A DNA stretch of 64,000 bases from Pseudomonadota bacterium. GTDB lineage: Bacteria; Desulfobacterota; Syntrophia; Syntrophales; UBA8958. Under the pieces are notes generated by a model. The model saw only the letters and a list, made by a program, of their open reading frames with translations. It did no database searches and had not been told where the DNA came from. Shown one piece after another: positions 22,426 to 26,356 of the stretch (position 1 is the first letter of the stretch; every line of letters begins with the position of its first letter). The translations under genes and the position numbers were made by a program. The DNA lies in NCBI GenBank assembly GCA_030057915.1, contig JASGUC010000012.1:24399-88398 (forward strand). Reading direction: 5' to 3'.

Positions 22426-24585
22426 ATGCCGGCATATAGCGCGATGCCCTCTGTAACCGATGGGATGGTCGAGTTGTCCGATGGGATGACCGGACCGGCC
22501 CTCGACAAGGATCGACTTCTCAAGAGCATCTTCCGGATCAGCAACCTGCTGACGATGCAGGCCAATCAGGACGAGATTCTGGCGAAGATCCTCGATGAAC
22601 TCGTCGATGCCGTAGGTTTTGAGAGCGGCATCATCAGGCTCTTCGACGAAACGCAGCAGTGCCTGATAACGAAGGCGGTAAAGAATTACCGGGAGGAAGA
22701 TGCCGTCCGGGCCTTCAGCACCCCCCTGAATATCAAGGAGCACGACTGCCTGGCCACCAAGGTGGCGCGGACGGGAGATACGCTCACGATCAGAAACGCC
22801 GCCACGGATCCCCGCATTACCCCTCTGGACCGCATGCTCACCAATATCGTCAGCCGCGGGTCCATCGTCTGCGCCCCCCTGAGGATCGGGGATTACGTCA
22901 TCGGCACGTTGGCGGCGTGGCGTCGGGAGGAGGTCGATTTCTTCGCGGAGGAAATCAACCTCTTTCTCACCTTTTCCAATCAGGTCAGTGTAATCATCCA
23001 CAATGCCCGGCTGCTGGAAACGAATGCCGAAAAGATCAGACACCTGACGATACTGCAGGAAGCGGTCTCGGAGATGAACCAGAGTTACGCCCTTGACAAT
23101 CGCATCCTCGAAATCGTCTTCGCCAGCGCCTTGAAAATCGCCCAGGCCGAGCGGGCCATGGGTTATGTGTGGGACTTAGAGAAGGATCGCTGCTTGATCA
23201 ACGACGGCGAACGGGTGGTGGTGAAGAGCAAGCAGGAATGCGACAGGACGATGAGCGCCAGCCTCGTCCGGGAGGCGATCGAAAAGAATGCCACCGTCGT
23301 GAACGCCGCAATGGACGGCGGGGGAACCCGCCCCTTATTCCCGGATTTTCCCGTGGAAATCGCCATTCCTTTCCACATCCGGGATAAGTTTGTCGGGGCC
23401 CTGCTGTTGGCAAAACGAAAGGGCGGCTTCACCTCCGATCAGGTCAATGTCCTGGATGTCCTAATCAAAAACGCGGCCACGGCCTATGACAATGCCATTA
23501 TGCATTCCCTTCTCTCCCTGGAGGCGGAAACCCTGAAGACGGAGGTAGAGAAGTTGAAGGAGCGAGAGGATCATCTCATGGGTTTCCACGACATCCTGGG
23601 AAAATCAAGAAAGATGATCGACATCTTTCATGTTATCGCCGATGTGGCGGGACATGACACGAACATCCTGATACAGGGGGAGAGCGGCACGGGCAAGGAG
23701 CTGATCGCCCGGGCCATTCACCGCCATTCCCACCGAAGCCTGAAGCCATTCGTGGATATCAATTGCGCCGCCATTCCCGCCACGCTTCTGGAGAGCGAAT
23801 TGTTCGGCTACGAGGCGGGGGCCTTTACGGATGCCAGAAAAAGAAAAATCGGGCTGCTCGAGTATTGCTTCGGCGGCACGATGCTTCTTGACGAAATCGG
23901 GGAAATGCCGACTCAACTCCAGGCGAAATTTCTCCGCATGCTCGAAGACGGACACATCCGGCGGCTGGGAGGGAACGAGAACATCCCCATCGATGTGCGG
24001 TTCGTTTTCTCCACCAACCGGGATCTGGGCGAAATGGTCGCCGCCGGCGCCTTCCGGGAGGACCTCTTCTACCGCATCAGCGTGGTTCCTGTCATGATCC
24101 CGCCCCTCCGGGAACGGGCCGATGACATAGTCATGCTGGCCCGCTACTTCGTCCAGGAGTTCAATAAAAAATTTACCAAGCGGGTCAAGGGATTCACCCG
24201 GGAAGCGGAGGCGATTCTCCAGGCTTACTCCTGGCCGGGAAATGTCAGGGAACTGAAGAACATCATCGAGAGGATCATGATCCTCAAGGGGGTAGGTAAT
24301 GTCATTTCCGCCGACAACATGCCCGCGGAAATGAACATCCTGGCCAACAAGGATGTGAACATCAAGATTGCCCCCTTCCTCCGGCAGCTTCCCCTGACAG
24401 GGATCCACTACGATACGGTGACCGAAAAGATCCTCAAGGACGTCAAGGAGAGGATTCTGGAGAACGCCCTTCGGAAATCGGGCGGCAATAAGACGGAAGC
24501 GGCGAAGCAATTGGGGATTTCCCGCTATAAATTTATTCGGGAGCACAAGAAGTATCGGGAAGAGAAGCGCGGGGCGTCGCCATGA
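22426..24585 (+). CDS. Sigma54-dependent transcriptional activator with two GAF domains
   Basis: 719 aa. Two GAF sensor domains (about 35-190 and 205-355) are followed by a AAA+ domain (about 385-620) with Walker A GESGTGKE, Walker B MLLDEIGEMP and the loop that contacts sigma54. That loop reads GAFTDA (about 465-470) instead of GAFTGA. A Fis-type helix-turn-helix ends the protein (NKTEAAKQLGISRYKFIREH). A perfect AGGAGGTGAT precedes ATG 22426. No receiver domain is present, so activity is probably set by GAF ligands. Tandem palindromes and a sigma54 promoter lie directly downstream, the likely target. rpoN is at 52776. Confidence 0.93.
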   Translation: MPAYSAMPSVTDGMVELSDGMTGPALDKDRLLKSIFRISNLLTMQANQDEILAKILDELVDAVGFESGIIRLFDETQQCLITKAVKNYREEDAVRAFSTPLNIKEHDCLATKVARTGDTLTIRNAATDPRITPLDRMLTNIVSRGSIVCAPLRIGDYVIGTLAAWRREEVDFFAEEINLFLTFSNQVSVIIHNARLLETNAEKIRHLTILQEAVSEMNQSYALDNRILEIVFASALKIAQAERAMGYVWDLEKDRCLINDGERVVVKSKQECDRTMSASLVREAIEKNATVVNAAMDGGGTRPLFPDFPVEIAIPFHIRDKFVGALLLAKRKGGFTSDQVNVLDVLIKNAATAYDNAIMHSLLSLEAETLKTEVEKLKEREDHLMGFHDILGKSRKMIDIFHVIADVAGHDTNILIQGESGTGKELIARAIHRHSHRSLKPFVDINCAAIPATLLESELFGYEAGAFTDARKRKIGLLEYCFGGTMLLDEIGEMPTQLQAKFLRMLEDGHIRRLGGNENIPIDVRFVFSTNRDLGEMVAAGAFREDLFYRISVVPVMIPPLRERADDIVMLARYFVQEFNKKFTKRVKGFTREAEAILQAYSWPGNVRELKNIIERIMILKGVGNVISADNMPAEMNILANKDVNIKIAPFLRQLPLTGIHYDTVTEKILKDVKERILENALRKSGGNKTEAAKQLGISRYKFIREHKKYREEKRGASP

Positions 24586-24604
24586 TTGCCGCCGTCTTCC
24601 GCAT

Positions 24605-24639
24605 GTGCGCGCCGCGCACGGACGGTGCGCAATGCGCAC
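24605..24639. promoter_or_regulatory. Two tandem 15-bp palindromes, probable enhancer (UAS)
   Basis: GTGCGCG-C-CGCGCAC (24605-24619) and GTGCGCA-A-TGCGCAC (24625-24639) are each perfect 7-1-7 palindromes. They are 20 bp apart centre to centre, two helical turns, the geometry of cooperating dimers. They lie about 240-260 bp upstream of the inferred sigma54 transcription start and 20 bp after the activator's stop codon, as expected for enhancer sites of that activator. Confidence 0.65.
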
Positions 24640-24692
24640 GGCGTTCAGATGGCCTATGGGGCGCGCTTTCCCCGTTCCCCTCCCCTGTGGGC

Positions 24693-24707
24693 GTTCGCTA
24701 AGCGCAC
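24693..24707. promoter_or_regulatory. Third, degenerate copy of the palindrome
   Basis: GTTCGCT-A-AGCGCAC keeps the 7-1-7 layout with one mismatched pair. With the flanking GC on each side it is a 9-1-9 repeat. Its centre is 68 bp from that of the second palindrome and about 173 bp upstream of the inferred start. Confidence 0.4.
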
Positions 24708-24846
24708 GCTCGTCGTCCGGTAATTTCCCTCCCCGCCATGGCATCCGCTCCCTTACGATTCATTGCGAAGGCAATGAAGGGGCAAATGCACAGTTATATT
24801 GACGAATTTCTCTCCTTCAAAAATAAGGCCCCGCTCCTGCTTGTCC

Positions 24847-24862
24847 TGGCACGACGATTGCA
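24847..24862 (+). promoter_or_regulatory. Consensus sigma54 (-24/-12) promoter
   Basis: CTGGCACGACGATTGCA (24846-24862) matches every specified position of the sigma54 consensus YTGGCACGNNNNTTGCW. GG at 24848-24849 and GC at 24860-24861 have the required 10-bp gap. Transcription should begin near 24873. The following sequence is AT-rich. Confidence 0.85.
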
Positions 24863-25128
24863 ATCAAATAGATTCAAAAAGACGCAAATCATGGGTGTGG
24901 AGGAAAAGAATCAGTCGAGGCAGGATTCAGGCAGCGAGAAGGATTCAGGGCATCACAGGTTTGACAGACAGATAGTGCATGATTTTTTCCTCTCCCTAGA
25001 TAGCGGCGGGAATGTCGAAACGTTAACCGGGCAAGAAGACAAAAGCGTAATTGACGAGGTAAAGGAAGCAAACGGGGAGTCCTCTCCCTGCCTGGATCAT
25101 CCTGCGATTAAAAAATAGGTTTCAATGC

Positions 25129-25164
25129 CGGTGGGTGGTTTACATCCCTCCTTTCCACCCACCG
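25129..25164 (+). repeat. Stem-loop 1 of the tandem pair
   Basis: CGGTGGGTGG pairs with CCACCCACCG around a 16-nt loop containing TCCCTCC. It is not followed by a T-run, so it is not a terminator on the plus strand. Confidence 0.75.
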
Positions 25165-25221
25165 CCCCCCTTAAAGGGCGATCTGAAGGGGAAATTAGCG
25201 ATACCCTTTCAGTTTATATAC

Positions 25222-25263
25222 AGGTGGATGGTTTAGTCCCTCCTTTTCCATCCACCTTTTTTT
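25222..25263 (+). terminator. Stem-loop 2 and Rho-independent terminator
   Basis: AGGTGGATGG pairs with CCATCCACCT and is followed by seven Ts. The loop is TTTAGTCCCTCCTTTT. The T-run abuts the minus-strand ychF stop codon, so it ends plus-strand transcription just before the convergent gene. Confidence 0.85.
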
Positions 25264-26356
25264 ATACATTGAAACGGAATAACACGATATCCCCGTCCTT
25301 GATCCGGTAATCCCTCCCCTCCGAACGAACGAGCCCTTTTTCCCTGGCGGCGGCGATGCTCCCCGCATCCCGGAAAGCCTCGAAGTGGAGGATCTCCGCA
25401 CGGATAAAACCCCTTTCCATGTCGCTATGGATCTTCCCGGCGGCCTGGCTCGCCTTGATGTCCTGGGGGATGGTCCAGGCCCGGAGTTCCGCGCCGACGG
25501 TCGTGTAAAAGGTAATCAGACCCAAAAGGGCGTAGCCCGCCCGAATCAGCTTTTCCAATCCCGATTCCTGGAGTCCGAGGTCCTGGAGAAATGCCGCCCG
25601 TTCCTCCGGCGCCAGTTCCGCGATTTCCGCTTCCATGTCCCCGCAGATGGTTACGGAGGAAGCGCCCTCCCGGGTGGCTATCTCCTCCACGGTCCTGATG
25701 TAGGTCTGGGGCCCCTTCAGCACGGCTTCGCTGACGTTGGCCACATAAAGGACCTGCTTGTCCGTCAGGAGGCGCAAATCCTTGCGTGTTTCCGCATCCT
25801 CCTCCGTCGGGGCGAGATTTCGACAGGGTATGCCGCGACCCAGGGCATTCTTGACCTTACGTAAAAATTCAAGGGTGGGGACGGCCTCCCGGTCGCCGGT
25901 TTTCACTCTCTTCTCAACCGTCGGGAGTCGCCGGTCGATGGTTTCCAGATCGGCGAGCAGCAATTCGGTGTTGACAATCTCGATGTCCCGCCCGGGATCC
26001 ACCAGGCCATCGACGTGGACAACATCGGGGTCGTCGAAACAGCGGACAATATGCACGATGGCGTCAACCTCCCGGATATGACCGAGAAATTTGTTGCCCA
26101 GTCCCTCCCCGCGGCTGGCCCCTTTTACCAGGCCAGCAATATCCAGGAATTCCATGGTGGTATATGTCTTCTTCGGCGGCTGGAGGATCGCGGCGATAAA
26201 ATCCAGTCGTGGATCGGGAACGGACACCACCCCGATGTTGGGATCGATGGTGCAGAAGGGATAATTTGCCACCTCCGCCCCGGCGGCGGTAAGGGCGTTG
26301 AAGATCGTTGACTTGCCCACATTGGGGAGGCCAACGATGCCGCAGCGAAATCCCAT
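25262..26356 (-). CDS. ychF: Redox-regulated ATPase/GTPase YchF
   Basis: Obg-related P-loop protein (OLA1 family) that binds ribosomes and hydrolyses ATP. G1 [14 protein letters not shown] begins at residue 8; switch and G3 regions read [19 protein letters not shown]. The C-terminal TGS domain includes [25 protein letters not shown] (key part [17 protein letters not shown]). The protein is 364 aa. ATG 26356 has AAGGAG 7 bases upstream; the ATG at 26377 is less well placed. It is separated from hppA by a terminator. Confidence 0.96.

Follow-up and report, generated by a model that had tools for sequence, protein, structure and literature searches.

A conserved, predicted sigma54-controlled unit of the Syntrophales with a small FF-motif gene and a hairpin RNA predicted to act on ribosome-binding sites

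In the window, the whole 64,000-nucleotide stretch of DNA analysed here, a gene encoding a GAF-GAF-AAA+-Fis activator is followed by three operators, a sigma54 promoter, a small gene and a structured RNA (Table 1). Comparison of sequences among related genomes showed that the activator-operator-promoter-RNA order is conserved, that the open reading frame (ORF) is under coding selection, that the RNA stems carry compensatory changes and that activator and RNA occur together. We consider it probable (about 0.62) that the locus is an activator-switched unit producing an FF-motif protein and an RNA that likely silences mRNAs by covering the sites at which ribosomes bind them. The activator would act through the three operators and the sigma54 promoter to turn on a single transcript, which would encode the small FF-motif protein and end in the conserved hairpin RNA; the RNA may then be cut from the 3' end of this transcript. 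Its UCCCUCCUUU loops would pair, without Hfq, with 10-nt AAAGGAGGGA Shine-Dalgarno (SD) sites, and the pairing would mask the ribosome-binding sites and silence the mRNAs, that of a family III CoA-transferase being the candidate.

Table 1. Positions of the activator gene, control sites, small gene and RNA elements in the window
Feature	Position	Strand	Basis or remark
Sigma54-dependent activator, GAF-GAF-AAA+(GAFTDA)-Fis HTH	22426..24585	+	Pfam domains, orthologues
Predicted operator 1, TGTGCGCGCCGCGCACG	24604..24620	.	11/12 match
Predicted operator 2, GGTGCGCAATGCGCACG	24624..24640	.	10/12 match
Predicted operator 3, CGTTCGCTAAGCGCACG	24692..24708	.	9/12 match, weaker; absent from the preliminary description
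Predicted sigma54 promoter (-24/-12), TGGCACGACGATTGCA	24847..24862	+	12/12; aligned across the genus; predicted start near 24873
Small gene, 75 aa, motif DFFLSLDS	24891..25118	+	dN<dS, FF motif, database relatives
RNA hairpin 1, UCCCUCCUUU loop at 25145-25154	25129..25164	+	100% of cells paired; 5/9 pairs with double-sided changes
Unpaired C-run (C6)	25165..25170	+	Follows hairpin 1 in the majority of aligned copies
RNA stem 2, CUGAAGGGG...CCCUUUCAG	25183..25212	+	91.9% of cells paired
RNA hairpin 3, UCCCUCCUUU loop at 25237-25246, then T7 terminator	25222..25263	+	99.6% of cells paired

The preliminary description had placed an activator ORF directly upstream of the locus, and a Pfam search bore this out, with GAF_2 (two stretches), Sigma54_activat (1.2e-65) and HTH_8 found in the protein. 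Orthologues in related genomes have 49-80% identity with it. In 29 of the 30 orthologue loci (L129-L158), the sigma54-contact motif is GAFTDA instead of GAFTGA, the remaining one having been missed by the script; GAFTDA is among the variants thought to be still active, according to the accessible part of a study of Desulfovibrio vulgaris (PMC4641369). The signal sensed by the GAF domains might, as a guess, be the energy or carbon state. With regard to self-feedback, no 8-nt match was present at the 12 activator starts examined.

The match to the full sigma54 consensus reported earlier was confirmed. When the 900 bp upstream were shuffled 100 times, no shuffle equalled the score of the window's promoter. 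The same 900-bp search was applied to 51 rows (50 loci) from BLAST matches in 60 related genomes; two of the 53 BLAST rows were second pieces of listed loci and were omitted, and L040 was counted twice. A promoter scoring at least 10/12 was found in 43 of the 51 rows (2.0 expected from dinucleotide shuffles), the other eight falling below the threshold. All 43 promoter rows have at least one operator (4.4 expected in shuffles), and 42 have at least two at 9/12 or better (0.3 expected). The operator consensus is TGTGCG-N5-CGCACA. The two palindromes of the preliminary description, with starts 20 bp apart, were recovered, and a third, weaker one that it had missed lies 68 bp past operator 2, at an equal offset in members of the genus (e.g. 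L004-L007 and L009). At no more than one mismatch, the operator occurs at one other place in the window's genome, equal to the backwards control; exact operator pairs 20-50 bp apart gave no match, even at the locus itself, where the gap is shorter. That the pattern is nearly unique to the locus suggests a dedicated regulator, and the activator is predicted to bind at these sites.

The RNA proper occupies the final 135 nt of the predicted transcript, about 25129-25263, where two hairpins with UCCCUCCUUU loops flank a third stem and a T7 terminator follows; the terminal stem-loop with its T-run thus ends where it had originally been placed. Folded by itself, the predicted 391-nt transcript is somewhat more stable than shuffled sequences (z -2.5; 2 of 100 shuffles equal it). 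Alignment A1 comprised 27 of the 50 loci, namely those having both C-loop hairpins. Its consensus runs from hairpin 1 (CGGUGGRUGG, a UCCCUCCUUU-containing loop and CCAYCCACCG) through a C-run, the second stem, UUUAUAUA and hairpin 3, which repeats the UCCCUCCUUU loop, to a T-run. Overall, 98.1% of the cells are paired, and both-sided changes were found in 11 of the 24 pairs, in 40 cells (4.3 and 11.7 in shuffles). Most copies have, immediately 3' of hairpin 1, a run of about 5-7 C. The C-rich loop of hairpin 3 is missing from several copies, among them L022, L032-L034, L039, L042 and L045.

A covariance-model search, which had been proposed in the preliminary description, detected the RNA in 87 of 155 Syntrophales genomes, in 43 of 53 genera and in 20 labelled families. 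BLAST with positions 24600-25270 gave matches in 43 of the 60 related genomes, and outside the genus these lie almost wholly within the final ~140 bases, i.e., in the RNA and not in the ORF. An exact-pattern scan of 84,980 species yielded 49 stretches, the titles of which name Syntrophus, Syntrophaceae, Syntrophales or Syntrophobacterales, Deltaproteobacteria and, in one case, Proteobacteria. Among 395 genomes of the phylum, searched with filters that lose weak matches, only two weak matches lay beyond the order (G432 and G500). Both are without GGTGG...CCACC hairpins, though one locus (L188) has the CCCTCCTTT string, and they were judged to be chance matches. In an Rfam search of the window only a tRNA reached the gathering score, and no family reached it for the RNA in seven loci; the best sub-threshold match in the region, SR6, was rejected at 27.8 bits against the required 55.

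The ~390 nt downstream of the promoter had been read as lacking a convincing gene, and synonymous-biased substitutions in the 24891-25118 frame had been named as evidence that would count against that reading. Such a bias was found: of 36 pairs, 35 had a dN lower than dS, and the ATG of the frame is aligned in nine copies of the genus. The frame is therefore a conserved small gene, a wholly non-coding transcript is rejected, and the purifying selection implies that the unit has two outputs, the small protein and the 3'-end RNA. The overall layout of activator, upstream sites, -24/-12 promoter, small RNA and terminator did stand, and it recurs in 20 of the 21 families labelled within the order; what fell was the claim of a non-coding stretch along the full ~390 nt. 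Across the order, an ORF of at least 50 aa precedes hairpin 1 in 34 of the 51 rows, although that of L043 is probably a different gene. An FF[LIVSKF] motif is present in 33 of these 34 ORFs and two motifs in 22, compared with 3.0 and 0.13 in shuffles that were made without the choice of ORF, which itself favoured the motif. A search of the protein database recovered 31 relatives of the genus version, which are named 'hypothetical protein' and mostly 70 aa long. The protein looks disordered and mostly acidic, and no Pfam match above the cut-off was found for it. The remaining 17 rows have no ORF of at least 50 aa, and at least 10 of them retain the promoter, the operators and the RNA (L018, L020, L022, L026, L032, L044-L047 and L050), the RNA thus being the more constant of the two outputs. 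The relatives have a second, C-terminal FFLPE-type motif, which is lost in the window's species (25041-25118; the protein ends in CLDHPAIKK) and in L008; the small-gene alignment has a one-base gap upstream of the lost motif.

The UCCCUCCUUU loop contains CCUCCUUU, which we take to be the anti-SD core of bacterial 16S RNA, and is complementary to AAAGGAGGGA across 10 nt. The RNA would likely act antisense on SD sites. There was no genome-wide enrichment of AAAGGAGGGA in the window's genome, with 24 sites versus 21 for the reversed control, and SD sites in any case look similar to this sequence. Two of the 24 are the RNA's own complement, and six of the remaining 22 lie 4-6 nt ahead of the ATG of an ORF with at least 80 codons. 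When an ATG was required, 49 sites were counted in eight genomes of the genus versus 4 for the backwards control, a difference that is due to SD function itself; 30 of the 49 were read individually. A family III CoA-transferase gene (PF02515) with the site recurs in seven of the eight genomes, and no NCBIfam equivalog above the cut-off was found for its product. We obtained 26 rows for this gene and read 22; ahead of the start, 21 of these carry an 8-10 nt match to AAAGGAGGGA. The start of L261 seems to be wrong, and the stretch examined contains no site. Outside the genus where the gene was picked, such a match is present in 14 of 15 orthologues, the site being conserved between families, and none of the 102 starts examined in neighbouring orthologous genes has an 8-nt match. 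The calculated duplex energies at the CoA-transferase site are -16.7 and -20.9 kcal/mol for the two loops versus -15.7 kcal/mol for a generic 16S tail, the loops being favoured; when this tail was sought in the window's genome, two places matched, neither of them rRNA-like. Other genes retain their own SD spelling too, as does HppA with GGAGGT in 6 of 8. Furthermore, G004 and G042 have neither RNA nor activator, yet retain the CoA-transferase site, and the gene is absent at 1e-100 in 36 of the 60 genomes. The CoA-transferase therefore cannot be the general target, and its mRNA is the best target but only a candidate. In two members of the genus (L215 and L236), the start of a butyrate/acetate kinase-like gene, named from its sequence, is preceded by AAAGGAGGGA, and this gene may be a further candidate target.

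The two C-rich loops could instead form a sponge for an RNA-binding protein, as CsrB and RsmZ do for CsrA, and not an antisense element for mRNAs. The presence of two near-identical loops on separate stems together with the C-run agrees with a sponge, as do the lack of AAAGGAGGGA enrichment and the result for Hfq (PF17209), which was not found in the window's genome, the control search having detected it in 5 of 14 named genomes. However, the loops spell the anti-SD core and are complementary, along 10 nt, to a ribosome site that is conserved, hairpin 1 alone is retained in several copies, and CsrA wants GGA within a loop, which these loops lack; we regard a sponge as unlikely. It also seems quite unlikely that the small FF-motif protein is the product and the hairpins are merely a terminator and stability element in its 3' UTR. 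Purifying selection on the ORF and the near-constant, often doubled FF motif would fit such an arrangement, but the promoter, operators and RNA persist in the ten loci named above that have no ORF of at least 50 aa, BLAST across families recovers the RNA and not the ORF, and the loop sequences are conserved although they are unpaired.

The linkage of activator and RNA might reflect inherited synteny of a housekeeping block, with the activator controlling something else. The order HD-TPR-GerMN-EF-G-activator-RNA-YchF-HppA-Pth-L25-Prs is indeed maintained in many of 20 regions examined. In 37 of the 43 genomes with both, the RNA lies 256-1867 bp downstream of the activator on the same strand. 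Because the block is so often syntenic, adjacency alone proves little, and the operators and joint losses are more telling. An activator orthologue and the RNA are both present in 43 of the 60 genomes and both absent from 13, with four discordant genomes (activator only in G054; RNA only in G031, G043 and G048; Fisher 1.4e-9, kinship ignored). Joint absence is spread over several separate lineages (G004, G020/G036, G029, G037 and G042). Moreover, the promoter and operators also precede RNA copies remote from the activator (L021, L027, L029, L044, L047 and L050), and synteny as the whole explanation is accordingly very improbable. Copies not beside the activator occur in the f19 genomes G028, G044 and G055, and as second copies in the genomes G015, G033 and G047. 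The abutment of the terminator on the ychF stop codon in the window might suggest a bidirectional ychF terminator, and a chance repeat or REP-like element was also considered. These possibilities are refuted with near certainty by the hairpin pattern, which occurs in the window's genome only at this locus (twice), by the compensatory changes in the stems and by RNA copies away from ychF (e.g. L195, L197 and L208).

The preferred reading, an activator-switched unit with a protein and a silencing RNA, has parallels in several known systems. RNAs controlled by sigma54 activators are known in Vibrio, where the Qrr RNAs are under LuxO or SypG, as described in the available portion of PMC10162802. 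The locus resembles them in having a sigma54 promoter, at least two operators for an enhancer-binding protein (bEBP), the binding being predicted here, and an RNA product. It differs from Qrr in its one-component GAF activator, the small ORF in the transcript, the C-rich loops and the lack of a detected Hfq, and the Qrr family was not matched in the window at the Rfam gathering score. The wider type of sigma54/bEBP-controlled small RNA (Qrr, GlmY) has a -24/-12 promoter upstream of the RNA, present here at 12/12, and upstream bEBP operators, which are predicted here. Within the same phylum, the sigma54 regulons of Desulfovibrio vulgaris include ncRNA targets of enhancer-binding proteins, several of them adjoining the regulator gene; these are likened to our RNA by description, no anti-SD hairpins being given in the accessible part of the paper (PMC4641369). 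The alpha-r14 / NfeR1 RNAs of Rhizobiales have several hairpins with near-identical anti-SD loops on variable stems, a design shared by the RNA described here, and according to the parts of the papers available the NfeR1 promoter is without a sigma54 signature (PMC10746234, PMC3927594). Their loops read CCUCCUCCC, whereas those here read (U)CCCUCCUUU. In the ccaF1-CcsR1-4 locus of Rhodobacter, a small protein gene is followed by hairpin RNAs from its 3' UTR, similar to the order found here; CcaF1 is described in the available part of PMC8625941 as a DUF1127 RNA-binding protein, whereas our small protein had no DUF1127 match at E<=1. The RNA thus appears to join features of the Vibrio/Desulfovibrio, Rhizobiales and Rhodobacter systems, with no Rfam match at the gathering level.

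In the anaerobic turnover of carbon, Syntrophales act as key partners. We found no small RNA described for Syntrophales or Syntrophus in the open-access PMC literature. If the silencing of metabolic mRNAs holds, the RNA would represent a new regulatory RNA family. Through this locus, the Syntrophales would gain a defined regulatory RNA and, with it, a dedicated activator, an operator code, a promoter and a first candidate target. The locus would combine the designs of the sigma54/activator-controlled and the multi-hairpin anti-SD small RNAs, in a sampled genome without detectable Hfq, and add a new two-motif small-protein family. It is conceivable, though doubtful, that the locus is an order-wide, Hfq-free switch with two outputs, in which the dedicated GAF activator induces an anti-SD decoy that damps strong-SD metabolic mRNAs, together with an FF[LIV][SP] bridging protein, as a brake at the energy limit. 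The mRNAs of acyl-CoA and CoA-transfer enzymes would then be damped first, the two FF[LIV][SP] motifs of the disordered protein would hold together two molecules of a cellular partner, and syntrophs, which live at the energetic limit, would possess a built-in brake.

Within the genus, the surroundings and copy number of the unit vary. The activator gene directly follows the EF-G gene in the window; in a genus relative, genes for a K+ channel (TrkA-N/RCK) and a cyclic-nucleotide-binding protein (L193:5748-7469) separate the two. In one member of the genus (G002), the set of promoter, operators, small gene and RNA is present in full three times (L005, L023 and L024), on different contigs.
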